In this document: one piece after another, positions 61 through 17,847 of the stretch
Layout: each line of letters begins with the position of its first letter
Position numbering within the stretch: the first letter of the stretch is position 1
Source: Pseudomonadota bacterium
Lineage (GTDB): Bacteria; Pseudomonadota; Gammaproteobacteria; QQUJ01
Assembly: GCA_008501635.1 (NCBI GenBank)
Contig: QQUJ01000018.1
Coordinates: forward strand, 152,001 to 216,000
Length of the DNA: 64,000 bases
Direction of reading: 5' to 3'
Notes under the pieces: generated by a model
The model's database searches: none
The model's input: the letters and a program-made list of their open reading frames with translations, nothing else
What the model was told of the DNA's origin: nothing
Position numbers and translations under genes: made by a program

Positions 61-1041
61 ATGTCCACCGACCTGCTCAGCCAAGACGAAATCGACGCCC
101 TGTTGCACGGGGTGTCGGATGGCGATGTCGAGACCGAAGGCGACCAGGGCCTGGCCCCGGGCGAAGCACGGGCCTACGACTTCACCAGCCAGGACCGCAT
201 CGTGCGTGGACGCATGCCGACGCTGGAGATGATCAATGAGCGCTTCGCCCGTCATTTCCGCGTGAGCCTGTTCAACATGCTGCGGCGTACTCCGGAGATC
301 TCTGTGGGTGGGGTGCAGATGCTGAAGTTCAGCGAGTATGTACACAGCCTCTACGTGCCCACCAGCCTCAATCTGCACCATATCAAACCGCTGCGCGGGA
401 CGGCCCTTTGCGTGGTCGATCCCAAGCTGGTCTTCACGGTGGTCGACAACTTCTTCGGCGGAAGCGGTCAGTTTCACACCAAGATCGAAGGTCGTGAGTT
501 CACCTCGACGGAGATGCGCGTGGTGCGCATGCTGTTGGAAGATGTGTTCAAGGATCTCAAAGAGGCGTGGTCACCGGTGATGCCGGTGACCTTCGAGTAT
601 CTCAACTCCGAGGTCAATCCCCACTTCGCCAATATCGTCAGCCCCACCGAGGTGGTGGTGGTCAACACCTTTCACATCGAGCTGGAGGGCGGCGGTGGCG
701 ATCTCCATCTCACCATGCCCTATTCGATGATCGAACCCATTCGGGATGTGCTCGACGCGGGTATCCAGAGCGATCGCTCCGATATCGATGAGCGCTGGAT
801 ACGCGCGATGCGTGAGCAGACCAAGGAGGCCAATGTGCATCTGAGCAGCGTTCTGGCCACGACGACGGTCAGCCTGCGTGAACTGGTGGAGGCTAAACCC
901 GGTGACGTTATTCCGATCGAGTTGCCGGAACACGTAGTGCTCTATGCCGAAGATACCCCGGTGTTTCTCGGACGCTACGGTGTCCACAACGGTTCACACG
1001 CGATCCAGATTGATCGACGTGTGGAACGCCCCGATGGGTGA
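61..1041 (+). CDS. fliM: Flagellar motor switch protein FliM
   Basis: 326 residues, the usual FliM length. The N-terminus (residues about 5-16, LSQDEIDALLHG) is the conserved EIDALL helix that binds phospho-CheY. The middle is the CheC-like domain that contacts FliG, and the C-terminal third is a SpoA domain that joins FliN. FliM forms the C ring at the cytoplasmic base of the motor and, with FliG and FliN, sets rotation direction. It is the first whole gene of the fliMNOPQR-flhBA run. No missing key segment is seen. Confidence 0.97.
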   Translation: MSTDLLSQDEIDALLHGVSDGDVETEGDQGLAPGEARAYDFTSQDRIVRGRMPTLEMINERFARHFRVSLFNMLRRTPEISVGGVQMLKFSEYVHSLYVPTSLNLHHIKPLRGTALCVVDPKLVFTVVDNFFGGSGQFHTKIEGREFTSTEMRVVRMLLEDVFKDLKEAWSPVMPVTFEYLNSEVNPHFANIVSPTEVVVVNTFHIELEGGGGDLHLTMPYSMIEPIRDVLDAGIQSDRSDIDERWIRAMREQTKEANVHLSSVLATTTVSLRELVEAKPGDVIPIELPEHVVLYAEDTPVFLGRYGVHNGSHAIQIDRRVERPDG

Positions 1042-9993: not shown

Positions 9994-10386
9994 TTGGATA
10001 AGAACATGAAGATTCTCATCGTGGACGATTTTTCCACGATGCGCCGCATCATCAAAAATCTGCTGCGCGACCTGGGCTTCAACAACACAGCTGAGGCCGA
10101 CGATGGCGCGACGGCCTTACCCATTCTGCAGGCCGGTAATTTCGATTTTCTGGTGACCGACTGGAATATGCCCAACATGACCGGTATCCAGCTGCTGGAG
10201 GCGGTACGCACCGATCCCAAGCTGCAGAAACTCCCGGTGCTGATGGTGACTGCGGAGGCCAAGCGCGAACAGATCGTCATGGCGGCGCAGGCCGGGGTCA
10301 ACGGTTATATCGTCAAACCCTTCACGGCGGCGACTCTCAAGGAGAAGATCGAGAAGATATTCGAGCGTCTCGAAGGCGGCGGCTGA
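9994..10386 (+). CDS. cheY: Chemotaxis response regulator CheY
   Basis: 130 residues, a single receiver domain. The acidic pair is D11-D12, the phospho-acceptor is D56 ([12 protein letters not shown]), followed by the conserved T (VTAEAKRE) and K (VKPFTA). Start: the TTG at 9994 lies 5 bases after GGAGG (9984-9988) and gives [18 protein letters not shown]; the ATG at 10,006 would be 17 bases from that site, so TTG is preferred. Phospho-CheY binds the FliM N-terminus encoded in the same cluster and changes rotation direction. Confidence 0.96.
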
Positions 10387-10400
10387 ATCGGGGCAAGATC

Positions 10401-11150
10401 ATGGCAATACGCCCTGAGAATACCAAGGCCCTGCCTGACGTCGAGGCCGTGCGCGCACTGCTGAAGCATCTCGAGTCCGATAACCGCGCTGGTGCCGAGG
10501 CGTTGTTCGACGAACTGCTCGCGTTGCGCGAATCCCAGATGTTCCAGCAGCTGGGCAGGTTGACGCGTGATATTCACGATGCACTGAGAAATTTCCACCT
10601 CGACGAGCGCCTCTCGAAGTTGGCCGACGAGGAGATTCCGGACGCCAAGCAGCGGCTCAACTACGTTATCGAGATGACCGGTCAGTCGGCCCACCGCACC
10701 TTGAACGCGGTCGAGGCCTGTCTCCCACTGTCGGAGCAGATCGAGATTCAGGGCGGTGAACTGCTGGCGGACTGGGAGCGGTTTCGCAACCGCGAACTGA
10801 CGATGGAGGAGTTCAAAGGACTGTCCAGCCGGATCAGCGACTATTTTTCGACGGCCGCCCAGTGTGCAGCCAGCATGCGCGGCGAACTCTCCGACGTCAT
10901 GATGGCACAGGATTTTCAGGATCTGACCGGCCAGGTCATCCGGCGGGTCATTACTCTGGTACAGGAGGTAGAGGACAAATTGGTCGATCTGGTACGGGCC
11001 GCCGGCGGACGGATCAAATCGGGTGCGCCGGAAGTTAAAGAGGCGTCGCTGTCTCAGGGTGAGGGGCCGACGCCGCCCGCCCTGTTGACCGACGATCGAG
11101 TTGCGAACCAGGACGATGTGGACGACCTGCTCTCGAGCCTGGGTTTCTGA
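10401..11150 (+). CDS. cheZ: CheY-P phosphatase CheZ
   Basis: 249 residues, mainly helical. The long hairpin includes the catalytic segment MMAQDFQDLTGQVIRR with the Gln that attacks CheY-P. The last residues, DDVDDLLSSLGF, form the C-terminal CheY-P-binding helix shared with enteric CheZ. It dephosphorylates CheY-P at the receptor array or in the cytoplasm. It directly follows cheY, the usual arrangement in polar-flagellated gammaproteobacteria. Confidence 0.95.
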   Translation: MAIRPENTKALPDVEAVRALLKHLESDNRAGAEALFDELLALRESQMFQQLGRLTRDIHDALRNFHLDERLSKLADEEIPDAKQRLNYVIEMTGQSAHRTLNAVEACLPLSEQIEIQGGELLADWERFRNRELTMEEFKGLSSRISDYFSTAAQCAASMRGELSDVMMAQDFQDLTGQVIRRVITLVQEVEDKLVDLVRAAGGRIKSGAPEVKEASLSQGEGPTPPALLTDDRVANQDDVDDLLSSLGF

Positions 11151-11320: not shown

Positions 11321-13510
11321 ATGGCCATCGATGGCGATGACGAGATCCTTCAGGATTTTCTGATCGAAGCAGGGGAAATTCTCGAACTGCTGGGTGAGCA
11401 GTTGGTCGATCTGGAGCGCAAGCCTCAGGATTCCGAGTTGCTCAACGCCATCTTCCGCGGCTTTCATACCGTCAAGGGCGGCGCCGGATTCCTGGGTATC
11501 ACCTCGCTGGTCGAGATCTGCCACTGCACCGAAGACGTTTTCAATCTGCTGCGCCAGGGAAGCGTTGTCGTCGATGCCGGCATCATGGACATCGTGCTGA
11601 GATCGCTCGATTCGGTCAATGAAATGTTCGACGGGGTGCGCGGCGGTCAGGAGCCGGCGGCAGCCGATACCGAACTGCTCCAGCAGCTGCGCTATATCGC
11701 CGATCACGGGCTTGCGCCCGGCGGCAATGCTGCCCCCGCTGTCAGTCAAGCCGCCGTCGCCGAAGCGGCGTCACCCGCGGCGGTGGAGGCGGAAGCGAAG
11801 AACGCACCAGCCCCCGACGACGATTTTACCGATCTCGAGTTTCAGGCACTGCTCGATGCGGCAGCGAACAGCAAGGAAGCCACGGCAGCTGAGTCCGCCC
11901 CACCCCCAAGCGAAGCAGGCGAAGGGGATATCACCGAGGACGAATTCGAAGCCCTGCTCGACGAACTCCATGGCAAGGGGAAGTTCAGTGCCGCGGGTAT
12001 CGAGGCAGCACCGGAACCCCAACCCGTCCCGGGCGCACCGACGCCACCACCAGCCGCGGCTGACGACGACGAGATTACCGATGATGAGTTCGAGGCATTG
12101 CTTGACGAGTTGCACGGTCAGGGGAAGTTCGGCGCAGATCTTGTTGCAGCCATCCCAAACAGGGCCGTGGCAGACAAAAAAACGTCCGCCAAGGCACAGG
12201 GGAAACCCGCGCCGAAGGTGGCGGCGGGATCCAAGCCAACCGCGAAGCCGGCATCCCAACCGGCGCCTCGGCCGGCCACGCCACGCGCTGATACCACCGC
12301 GCAGTCGGATTCGACGATACGCGTCGATACCAAGCGCCTCGACGAGATCATGAACATGGTGGGTGAGCTGGTGCTGGTACGCAACCGACTCGCCACACTG
12401 CGCAGCAAAATCAACGATGAACAGGTTGCCAAGGCGATCGCCAATCTGGATCTGGTCACCTCGGATCTTCAATTGGCCGCCATGAAGACCCGCATGCAAC
12501 CGATCAAAAAGGTCTTTGGGCGCTTCCCACGGGTGGTGCGCGATCTCGCCCGCCACCTCAATAAGGAGATCGACCTGGAGATGCAGGGCGAGGAGACCGA
12601 TCTCGATAAAAACCTTGTCGAGGCGTTGGCCGATCCGTTGGTGCATCTGGTGCGTAACTCGGTCGACCACGGGATCGAGCTGCCCGAGGTGCGTGTCAAG
12701 GCAGGCAAGTCGCCCAAGGGTACCGTGGTATTGGCCGCCGAGCAGGCGGGTGATCACATCCTCCTCTCCATCGAAGACGACGGCGCGGGCATGGACCCCG
12801 AGCGGCTGCGCGCCAAAGTGGTGGAGAAGGGTTTGATGGACGAAGAGGCGGCCAAACGGCTGACCGATCGCGAGTGCTACAACCTGATCTTTCTGCCGGG
12901 ATTCTCGACCAAATCCGAAATCTCCGACGTCTCCGGTCGCGGTGTGGGTATGGACGTGGTCAAGACGCGTATCGGTCAGTTGAACGGCACGGTGGAGATC
13001 GATTCCGAACTGGGTCGCGGTAGCCGTATCTCGATCAAAGTACCTTTGACCCTGGCCATCCTGCCGACGCTGATGGTCAGACTCCAGGACCAGGCTTTTG
13101 CCATACCCTTGAGCAACGTCAACGAGATTTTCGATCTCGATCTGTCACGTACCAAGATGATCGATGGTCAAGAGGTGGTGATGCTGCGGGGGAAAGCACT
13201 GCCGGTTTTTTATCTCAAGGAGTGGTTGATCCGTGCGAAAGGAACGCCCTCCGAGCGACCCAGTTCCGGACATGTCGTGGTGGTGCAGGTGAGCGGACGC
13301 CTGGTGGGGTTCGTGGTCGATCATCTGCTTGGCCAGGAGGAGGTGGTGATCAAACCTTTGGGGGCCTTTCTCCAGAAAATTTCCGGGCTTGCCGGTGCCA
13401 CGATAACCGGTGACGGACGTATGGCGCTCATCCTGGATGTGCCCAGTCTGCTGAAAGCCTATGCGGGTCGACGTGGTGCCGGGCACGCGCGGGCAAAGGA
13501 TCAACGGTGA
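11321..13510 (+). CDS. cheA: Chemotaxis histidine kinase CheA with a repeat-bearing linker
   Basis: 729 residues from the ATG at 11,321, which begins the Hpt domain directly; the reading frame is open further upstream, but that extension resembles no CheA. P1/Hpt has the phospho-accepting His49 (FRGFHTVKGGAGFLG). No folded P2 domain is visible: residues ~130-345 are an Ala/Pro/acid-rich linker with three similar motifs (about 166-179, 203-219 and 248-270; core DEFEALLDELHG). P3 dimerisation, P4 kinase (N, G1, G2 boxes) and P5 CheW-like regulatory domains follow in order. It phosphorylates CheY and CheB. The linker motifs probably correspond to the LID region described for CheA proteins that pair with ParP. 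Confidence 0.96.
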   Translation: MAIDGDDEILQDFLIEAGEILELLGEQLVDLERKPQDSELLNAIFRGFHTVKGGAGFLGITSLVEICHCTEDVFNLLRQGSVVVDAGIMDIVLRSLDSVNEMFDGVRGGQEPAAADTELLQQLRYIADHGLAPGGNAAPAVSQAAVAEAASPAAVEAEAKNAPAPDDDFTDLEFQALLDAAANSKEATAAESAPPPSEAGEGDITEDEFEALLDELHGKGKFSAAGIEAAPEPQPVPGAPTPPPAAADDDEITDDEFEALLDELHGQGKFGADLVAAIPNRAVADKKTSAKAQGKPAPKVAAGSKPTAKPASQPAPRPATPRADTTAQSDSTIRVDTKRLDEIMNMVGELVLVRNRLATLRSKINDEQVAKAIANLDLVTSDLQLAAMKTRMQPIKKVFGRFPRVVRDLARHLNKEIDLEMQGEETDLDKNLVEALADPLVHLVRNSVDHGIELPEVRVKAGKSPKGTVVLAAEQAGDHILLSIEDDGAGMDPERLRAKVVEKGLMDEEAAKRLTDRECYNLIFLPGFSTKSEISDVSGRGVGMDVVKTRIGQLNGTVEIDSELGRGSRISIKVPLTLAILPTLMVRLQDQAFAIPLSNVNEIFDLDLSRTKMIDGQEVVMLRGKALPVFYLKEWLIRAKGTPSERPSSGHVVVVQVSGRLVGFVVDHLLGQEEVVIKPLGAFLQKISGLAGATITGDGRMALILDVPSLLKAYAGRRGAGHARAKDQR

Positions 13511-15485: not shown

Positions 15486-16400
15486 ATGGCGCGTAAAAAA
15501 CGACCTGAAGAACACGAGAATCACGAGCGTTGGCTGGTTTCCTATGCCGATTTCATCACGCTCTTGTTCGCGTTCTTCGTGGTCATGTACTCCATCTCCT
15601 CGATCAACGAGGGCAAGTACCGTGTTCTCTCCGACGCCATAGTGGCGGCCTTTCGTTCACCAGCCAAGAGTCTTGATCCGGTTCAGATCGGCCAGCTGGC
15701 GAAGAGCCCGAACAGTTCCCCGGTCAATCTTCCCTACGAGTATCGGCGCAAACTGGAAGAGGCGTTGGGCGGTCAGCAGCGCAGTATCGAACGTGAGCCT
15801 GGGGGACGCACCAGCGATGCGGCTTCCACCGCCTTGAAGAGTATCAGCGGTGAAATTCAACAGGCGGTTCAGTCACTGATTGACCAGGACCTGGTGAAGG
15901 TACGCCAGGGCAAGGGTTGGCTGGAGATCGAGCTCAAGGCGAGCATTCTCTACCCAAGCGGCAGCGCTGCCCTGACGGAAGAGGCGCTCCCGGTGCTGCG
16001 CAAACTGGCGGAAGTGTTGAACAAACATCCGAACCCCGTGCAGGTGGAGGGGCACACCGACAACCTGCCGATCCGGTCGCTGGTCTATCCATCGAACTGG
16101 GAGTTGTCAGCGGCGCGCGCCGCCAGCGTGGTCCAGTTCTTCGTTCAGGTGGGAATGGATCCAAAGCGCATGGCCGCCATCGGCTATGGTGAGCATCGCC
16201 CGGTATCCGACAATACCAGTGTGGATGGCAGGCGCGAGAATCGTCGCGTGGCACTGGTGGTTTTGGCCACGGAGACGGCGACACCGGCGCTGTCGGCTCC
16301 CACACCTGAGGTCCCTACGCCCAAAGCGCCGGGGCAGCTTTCGCCAATCTCGGGTATCCCGGTGCAACCGCCGCTTGGTGCCGGTGGAGCTCCGCAGTGA
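15486..16400 (+). CDS. motD: Flagellar stator protein MotD (MotB family)
   Basis: 304 residues. One N-terminal transmembrane helix contains the ion-binding Asp22 (VSYADFITLLFAFFVVMYS). A plug/linker region follows, then an OmpA-like peptidoglycan-binding domain (about 155-255; EGHTDNLPI, SAARAASVVQFF, NRRVALVV) and a Pro/Ala-rich tail. It anchors the MotC ring to the cell wall. It sits 90 bases after motC, and overlaps parC by GTGA. Confidence 0.94.
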   Translation: MARKKRPEEHENHERWLVSYADFITLLFAFFVVMYSISSINEGKYRVLSDAIVAAFRSPAKSLDPVQIGQLAKSPNSSPVNLPYEYRRKLEEALGGQQRSIEREPGGRTSDAASTALKSISGEIQQAVQSLIDQDLVKVRQGKGWLEIELKASILYPSGSAALTEEALPVLRKLAEVLNKHPNPVQVEGHTDNLPIRSLVYPSNWELSAARAASVVQFFVQVGMDPKRMAAIGYGEHRPVSDNTSVDGRRENRRVALVVLATETATPALSAPTPEVPTPKAPGQLSPISGIPVQPPLGAGGAPQ

Positions 16401-17194
16401 AGGTCTGGGCCATCGCCAATCAGAAAGGTGGTGTGGGCAAGACCACCACGGCCATTACCCTGGCGGGACTCCTGACGGACGAGGGCCATGGGGTGTTGCT
16501 GATCGATCTCGATCCGCACGGTTCGGCGACCTCTTACCTGGGGTTCGACCCCGAAACCGTGCAGAACAGCGTTTATACGCTGTTCAAGCAGACCGCCGAC
16601 GGCGTGCAGCCCAACGTTGCGGCTGCGGTTCAGCCAACCAGGATCGAGCGCCTCCATCTGCTGGCTGCCTCGACTGCTCTCGCTACGCTCGACCGTCAAC
16701 TCGGAAGCCGCGAAGGCATGGGTCTGGTGGTGGGGCGCGCGCTGAAGCGACTTGAAGGGAAATTCGATCATGTCTTTATCGATTGCCCCCCGGTCTTGGG
16801 CGTACTGATGATCAATGCCTTGGCCGCAAGCGATTTTCTGCTGATACCTACACAAACCGAGTACCTGGCGCTTAAAGGTCTGGACCGCATGCTCCGAACC
16901 CTGGAGATGGTGCGGCGCTCCCGCCCCCAGCCGTTGCCCTACCTGATCGTGCCAGCCTTTTTTGATCGGCGCACGCGCGCCTCCATCGACACCCTGCGGG
17001 TACTGCGCGAACGCTACAGCGAGCACCTCTGGGGTGGAGTGATCCCCATCGATACACAGTTTCGCGAAGCCAGTCAGGCGGGTGTGCCGCTCTCCTCGAT
17101 GAGTGCGCATACCAGGGGCCTCGATGCCTATCGGCAACTGCTGGGTGATCTGAACGACGACGTACACCAGGTCGGTAAGGCGGCGGCTCTGTGA
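16397..17194 (+). CDS. parC: ParC, ParA/MinD-like ATPase for polar chemotaxis arrays
   Basis: 265 residues, GTG start overlapping motD. It has a ParA-type Walker A (NQKGGVGKTTTAITLAG, residues about 8-24), Walker A' (LLIDLDPHGSATSYLG) and switch II (FIDCPPVLG). In Vibrio and Pseudomonas the gene at this exact place, just before a CheW-like gene, is ParC, which brings chemotaxis arrays to the cell poles and ensures inheritance at division. No ParB or parS is nearby, so plasmid or chromosome partition is unlikely. Confidence 0.88.
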   Translation: MKVWAIANQKGGVGKTTTAITLAGLLTDEGHGVLLIDLDPHGSATSYLGFDPETVQNSVYTLFKQTADGVQPNVAAAVQPTRIERLHLLAASTALATLDRQLGSREGMGLVVGRALKRLEGKFDHVFIDCPPVLGVLMINALAASDFLLIPTQTEYLALKGLDRMLRTLEMVRRSRPQPLPYLIVPAFFDRRTRASIDTLRVLRERYSEHLWGGVIPIDTQFREASQAGVPLSSMSAHTRGLDAYRQLLGDLNDDVHQVGKAAAL

Positions 17195-17847
17195 GTGGTA
17201 AGTTGGAACGCCCGGTGCTGGTGGATCAGCAGGTCGCGCTGAGCGCCTACCTGGATTCCCTGCTGCGCGAGGTGCCGATCGAGTTCGAAGCAGGAGCCGA
17301 AAAACCAGCGGCTGTTCATCTCTTGCGTCAGCCCGCGGCGGTTGAGGAGGAGAGTGTCGCGGCGCCTGCAGAGGTAGGCGCCCGGCTTGCGGTGGAATCG
17401 CCGCTGCCGGACTGGGTGGAAACACGCTTCCAGTGTCTGCTTTTTGACGTTCGCGGGCTGACCTTGGCAGTGCCTTTGGAAAAGCTCTGCGGGATCACGG
17501 AATGGGCCGATGGCGTGACAAAACTGCCCGAGCGCCCGGCCTGGTTCCTGGGGGTGATGACCTACCGTGAGCGACAGGCCGGCATCGTCGATACCGCAGG
17601 CGTGGTTATGCCCGAACGCCTGGATGGCACCACCACCCCTACCGCTTACGCCCATATCATCTTCTTCGACGAGGGTCGCTGGGGGCTCGCCTGTGAGCGG
17701 GTGGATCAGGTGATCACGCTTGGCAAGGATCAGGTTCGCTGGCGCACATCGCGAACCAAGCGGCCCTGGCTGGCGGGCACGGTCGTCGATCATATGTGCG
17801 CGCTTCTGGATATCGACGCATTGGCGGATATGATCAAGGCACTATGA
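17191..17847 (+). CDS. parP: ParP, CheW-like array-anchoring protein
   Basis: 218 residues, GTG start overlapping the parC stop. The first ~80 residues are a variable, Ala/Glu-rich N-terminus. The C-terminal ~135 residues are a CheW-like fold (FQCLLFDVRGLTLAVPLEKLCGI ... WFLGVMTYRERQAGIVDTAG). In Vibrio this domain (AIF) binds CheA and receptors, and the N-terminus binds ParC. Together with the unusual CheA linker it forms the expected polar-tethering set. Confidence 0.87.
   Translation: MSGKLERPVLVDQQVALSAYLDSLLREVPIEFEAGAEKPAAVHLLRQPAAVEEESVAAPAEVGARLAVESPLPDWVETRFQCLLFDVRGLTLAVPLEKLCGITEWADGVTKLPERPAWFLGVMTYRERQAGIVDTAGVVMPERLDGTTTPTAYAHIIFFDEGRWGLACERVDQVITLGKDQVRWRTSRTKRPWLAGTVVDHMCALLDIDALADMIKAL

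Follow-up and report, generated by a model that had tools for sequence, protein, structure and literature searches.

The CheA kinase encoded at this locus carries no P2 domain, the module that lies between P1 and P3 and docks CheY, and its P1-P3 linker instead holds three similar short segments. How CheY might reach such a kinase is the question addressed here. Over half of known CheAs are without a P2 domain, and the linkers of P2-less CheAs have been described as extended unstructured regions (Berry et al., PMC10782961). The window, as the whole analysed stretch of 64,000 nucleotides is called below, contains the gene order fliM-fliN-...-fliA-cheY-cheZ-cheA-cheB-motC-motD-parC-parP-cheW-DUF2802, as read from open reading frames and Pfam matches, and every feature discussed lies on its forward strand. 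The part from cheY to cheW (cheY-cheZ-cheA-cheB-motC-motD-parC-parP-cheW) is the F6-type order, which is also seen in relatives. Two candidate partners of the linker are encoded in this operon: cheY (9994..10386; Pfam Response_reg, 8e-31), the partner proposed here, and parP (17191..17847), the rival partner, whose product has a CheW-like AIF domain with the invariant tryptophan of RPWLAG (Pfam and a ParP profile). The latter follows parC, which encodes a ParA-like ATPase (16397..17194; AAA_31, 7e-45).

A linker with three motifs and no P2 domain

The best start of cheA is the ATG at 11321 (MAIDGDDE...), and the frame ends at 13510. Pfam recognises Hpt, H-kinase_dim, HATPase_c and CheW domains in the order P1, P3, P4, P5, and we take the kinase to belong to the F6 class, a name assigned from general knowledge rather than by a class model. 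P1 occupies 11342..11611 (PF01627, residues 8-97), the P3 dimerisation domain 12311..12490 (PF02895, residues 331-390), and P4 together with the CheW-like P5 12632..13459 (residues 438-577 and 584-713). The disordered linker that houses the motifs extends over 11708..12310 (approximately residues 130-330).

The original prediction that P2 is missing, which was to be abandoned if a recognisable P2 fold appeared in the linker, is borne out by both Pfam and AlphaFold2. No Pfam match to P2 or to a CheY-binding domain was obtained in the window CheA even at E<=10, nor in 39 relatives, and nothing P2-like was found by Pfam in residues 98 to 330; as a positive control, E. coli CheA gave its CheY-binding domain at 8e-17. 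In the AlphaFold2 model, built from a 40-sequence alignment (mean pLDDT 74, overall pTM 0.41), residues ~130-336 mostly have pLDDT below 50, with the exception of three helices of moderate confidence at residues 171-187, 206-217 and 254-265, and no P2-like alpha/beta fold occurs. A Foldseek search with this model returned only known CheA and histidine kinase domains. An hhalign comparison of the linker with P2 gave no match, but it also failed to match E. coli P2 to further P2 domains, its positive control, and carries no weight here.

The three predicted helices coincide with the three motifs, all in frame within cheA, so the description of three similar segments in this linker holds. Copy 1, DFTDLEFQALLD (11822..11857), falls on helix 171-187; copy 2, DITEDEFEALLDELHGKGKF (11927..11986), on helix 206-217; and copy 3, EITDDEFEALLDELHGQGKF (12071..12130), on helix 254-265. 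The common pattern is [ST][DE]xEF[ED]xLLD, which in most copies continues as (Q/E)LHGxGK. A 21-position motif profile, run on the whole genome, found copies 2 and 3 only, and it had no match among PDB sequences. Copy 1 is of a distinct, shorter type without the HG tail that recurs in relatives, in many of which the N-proximal copy is often of the form DITDxEFExLLDAL; this suggests two motif classes inside one linker. Copies 2 and 3 are identical at 17 of 20 residues while sharing only 45 of 60 bases, and 11 of their 14 changed codons are synonymous. Since the protein has been kept while the bases diverged, these copies are old, selected repeats rather than a fresh duplication.

Conservation, spread and exclusion of P2

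Aligned over 40 CheAs, copies 2 and 3 have a mean conservation of 3.4-3.5 bits per column, against 3.5 for P3-P5; copy 1 has 2.7 bits and the remaining linker 1.3 bits. The motifs are thus the only conserved element of the linker. Across 213 distinct full copies, the phenylalanine is invariant and LLD nearly so. The copies could in principle be a chance product or a low-complexity repeat of recent expansion, without any role in binding, as their number varies from 1 to 5 per CheA and correlates with linker length (r = 0.67). With conservation equal to that of the catalytic core, the invariant phenylalanine and the mainly synonymous changes between copies 2 and 3, this explanation is hardly credible.

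The motif belongs to a Gammaproteobacterial kinase class and is not peculiar to the window genome. A named survey and a sample of relatives found it in nearly every CheA of the F6 type, including those of Pseudomonas, Stutzerimonas, Aliivibrio, Pseudoalteromonas, Methylomonas, Marinospirillum, Sedimenticola and others. In 370 genomes of the class, it was detected in 146, and an independent survey by P3-P5 alone found an F6-type CheA in 149, the two lists mostly overlapping. All of the motif matches listed lie in CheA-sized frames or in fragments of such frames. Phylum-wide, the motif is confined to Gammaproteobacteria, with single and weak matches elsewhere.

A survey of motif copy number against P2 and against parC/parP, proposed together with the original prediction, was carried out, and its first part concerns P2. 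Of the 220 distinct CheA sequences compared, 200 carry only the motif and 15 only P2; five (at least two of them fragments) carry neither, and no sequence combines the two. The P2-only proteins include paralogs from genomes whose first CheA bears the motif (L113 versus L055, and the paired CheAs in L155 and L165). A search with PF07194 found no P2 in 232 genomes of the class, which indicates that the P2 domains of this class are of another type; the P2-type CheAs were then taken from second cheA loci. The P2 set is small and partly gathered as second loci, and its P2 profile was started from six of its own sequences; because the motif, the absence of P2 and the CheA class are inherited together, the exclusivity may reflect few events. 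Compared with the known P2 and CheY-binding domains (PF07194, PF09078), the motif region has the same place between P1 and P3 and is proposed to do the same job, but it has isolated helices in place of an alpha/beta fold.

Likeness to the CheY-binding peptides of FliM and CheZ

The 21-position profile is too short and too dominated by the tail for the detection of FliM or CheZ, and a 13-position matrix built from CheA motifs only was used in its place, scanning 236 proteins (~190 kb of E. coli and the window). Among 70,922 non-CheA 13-mers, the C-terminal CheY-binding helix of E. coli CheZ ranked 1st and the N-terminal helix of E. coli FliM 4th. The N-terminal peptide of the window FliM, LSQDEIDALLHGV (76..114), which is of the known CheY-binding helix type, came 6th and is the best 13-mer of its protein, so the predicted resemblance of the motif core to the FliM peptide of the same operon was confirmed. 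The C-terminal peptide of the window CheZ, ANQDDVDDLLSSLGF (11103..11147), also of a known CheY-binding helix type, was 53rd. None of 2000 column-shuffled matrices matched the joint rank of E. coli CheZ, E. coli FliM and window FliM.

The same holds in relatives, where the top 13-mer falls on the N-terminal CheY-binding helix in 28 of 29 FliM proteins (the 29th being the same peptide in a mis-started frame) and on the C-terminal CheY-binding helix in 74 of 133 CheZ proteins; FliM and CheZ have the top mean scores with the CheA-motif matrix among operon families, CheA aside. In the reverse test, with a FliM matrix and 71,665 13-mers, the window CheZ peptide ranked 4th, copy 2 16th, copy 3 24th and copy 1 only 302nd. 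By these scans, the CheA motifs have the sequence pattern of a FliM/CheZ-type CheY-binding helix, and the likeness stands far above background in both directions. What is shared is a short acidic amphipathic helix with an S/T/N cap, acidic residues, one hydrophobe and then [DE]xLL. Unlike the FliM and CheZ peptides, the motif is arranged in tandem inside a kinase linker, has an LHGxGK tail, carries an invariant phenylalanine where FliM and CheZ have I or V, and its binding to CheY is putative.

Another resemblance bears on a different explanation, namely that the helices bind a partner other than CheY or ParP, or CheA itself: the CheB receiver, CheW or P5, a receiver-domain adaptor, or one another in a SHOCT-like self-association that tunes kinase activity. 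CheB, too, docks on the P2 domain of classical CheA. For P. aeruginosa, an adaptor with a receiver domain has been suggested to sit on CheA (PMC3861689), and 39 of 40 CheAs give weak Pfam matches to SHOCT (PF09851), whose ITxEEFE helix resembles the motif core. The window CheA, at 18 bits, misses the curated cut-off of 27 bits, which, among the CheAs tabulated singly, only that of L158 exceeds (32.6 bits). Moreover, the motif is not C-terminal, its match covers just the last half of the SHOCT profile, and the likeness ends at ITEEEFE, whereas the motif runs on as LLDxLHG, leaving LLD-L unexplained. The AlphaFold2 model, with its pTM of 0.41, gives no hint of a stable place for the helices on the rest of CheA, which speaks against self-binding, and cheB is absent beside cheA in several motif-bearing operons (L151, L158, L168). 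We regard such a partner as unlikely.

ParP, the LID and the case for CheY docking

The linker between P2 and P3 of CheA is also where the literature places the LID, a segment found only together with ParC and ParP that binds the AIF domain of ParP (PMC5706961; PMC7534058). The motifs could accordingly act as this LID, tethering the array to ParC at the pole through the CheW-like domain of ParP, with no CheY docking. They stand in the LID position, and since they are the sole conserved part of the linker there, the LID and the motif probably overlap. The motif shares with the Vibrio CheA LID both its linker position and an operon type with parC and parP; it differs in being kept also where parP is absent.

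The second part of the survey concerns this dependence on ParP. With one representative per family and CheAs found by P3-P5, the mean number of copies is 2.9 with ParP (n=49 families) and 1.9 without (n=12; p = 0.0004, phylogeny ignored), and the HGxG tail occurs in 41 of 49 families with ParP and 6 of 12 without (p = 0.02, phylogeny ignored). A much stronger tie of the tail to ParP (70/70 versus 6/13) came from a sample partly retrieved by the motif itself and was set aside in favour of the count by family. More copies in ParP-bearing operons mean that ParP may use some of them; the idea of a core for CheY and a tail for ParP is at best a weak lead, and some ParP-bearing families (L229, L258) have no HG tail.

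The core motif is, however, retained in about 12 families without an operon parP, with parP absence judged by a ParP profile and operon reading, by which a very divergent ParP could be missed. These include f22 (with neither parC nor cheZ), f26, f53, f91, f168, f11 and f25 (no parC found in the operon), as well as f99, f143, f56 and one member each of f128 and f141. Every parP-less family examined keeps at least one core helix, the weakest case being f25 with an atypical core (DDELDFEALLDAAHG). The core is kept in operons with neither parC nor parP (L150, L156, L157, L158, L161, L168), and also in the complete genome of L055, which has nine CheW domains with no recognised ParP among them. In f53, the linker holds the core in two or three repeats that lack the HG tail (ITDDEFEALLNQRD). 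Two further loci, L153 and L167, were considered ParP-less and rejected, as both have divergent ParPs. If the motif is the LID, its persistence counts against the restriction to ParC/ParP systems, and ParP binding cannot be the core motif's only role. On the LID explanation, the FliM/CheZ likeness would also be a coincidence, and we consider that explanation doubtful.

Several loci are of interest for their own arrangement. In L055:14802-16400, as in L152, L154, L160, L164 and L151, parC is directly followed by cheW and parP is gone, which makes these operons natural examples of parC in the absence of parP; one of them lies in the complete genome CP037918. The f53 loci L158:2474-4612, L161:10533-12728 and L280 have two or three near-identical linker repeats such as LPEGVDPDGEITDDEFEALLNQRD, with neither the LHG tail nor parC/parP. 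At L150:6566-8290, a 575-aa MotD frame, whose C-terminus is prolonged by a long Pro/Ala-rich stretch, stands directly before cheW, in the usual place of parC and parP. In L163:10480-12230 (G286), parC and parP appear to be fragmented by frame changes, and in the same genome cheA (L162) is divided between two frames; either assembly error or decay may be responsible. In Pseudomonas (L034, L038, L062, L067 and other loci), parC and parP homologues lie ~5 kb downstream of the cheA start, which contrasts with the statement that P. aeruginosa has no genes related to parC/parP (PMC12410967).

A partner of the core must be present in all parP-less systems and make up for the missing P2, which makes CheY the obvious candidate, and cheY is present in those operons of parP-less families that were read through. 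The likeness to FliM and CheZ points to CheY independently. At the pole of P. aeruginosa cells, the CheY-EYFP signal overlaps that of CheA-CFP (PMC12410967), and all Pseudomonas CheAs scanned are without P2 by Pfam; taken together, these observations imply that CheY docks there by a non-P2 site. Our main reading, to which we give a probability of roughly 0.6, is that the tandem FliM/CheZ-like linear motifs dock CheY in place of P2. The original prediction had offered CheY docking and a ParP-binding LID as two hypotheses: the former is better supported, by the exclusivity with P2, the FliM/CheZ likeness and the persistence without parP, while the latter retains the linker position and the higher copy number with ParP.

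We infer CheY binding, the face involved and the effect on phosphotransfer as follows. Each motif would lack order when free and fold into a single short amphipathic helix upon meeting its partner, most likely CheY, where it would sit on the alpha4-beta5-alpha5 face used by the N-terminal helix of FliM and the C-terminal helix of CheZ. The motifs would thereby do the job of the missing P2, enriching CheY locally around the phosphorylated histidine of P1, and two to four copies per subunit may offset weak single-site binding and hold CheY at the polar array. Where ParC and ParP exist, some copies or the LHGxGK tail may double as the ParP-binding LID.

Several points weigh against CheY docking. 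The FliM and CheZ peptides favour phosphorylated CheY, whereas a docking site would be expected to bind the unphosphorylated form and let go of CheY-P. P2 is not strictly essential for phosphotransfer. The phenylalanine in place of I or V, the modest ranks of the window CheZ peptide and of copy 1, the possibly few events behind the exclusivity and the SHOCT resemblance count in the same direction, as does the higher copy number with ParP, which would not be expected from CheY docking by itself. Many CheAs elsewhere are also without any P2 (PMC10782961).

The literature searched contains no account of FliM-like motifs in a CheA, although part of the motif may already be drawn as the LID in Ringgaard 2014. 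A broader scenario, to which we give slightly less than even odds, is that this kinase class swapped a folded P2 for tandem motifs mimicking FliM and CheZ, leaving kinase, phosphatase and motor to compete for CheY via one helical code, with copy number setting retention at the array and ParP later recruiting some copies for polar anchoring. If the motifs dock CheY, they would explain how it is delivered to the P2-less CheAs of Pseudomonas, Vibrionaceae and many other Gammaproteobacteria. Schemes that draw a P2 domain into such CheAs, as in a study of P. putida (PMC11978298), would then need correction, and the finding would suggest that kinase, phosphatase and motor recognise CheY through related helices.
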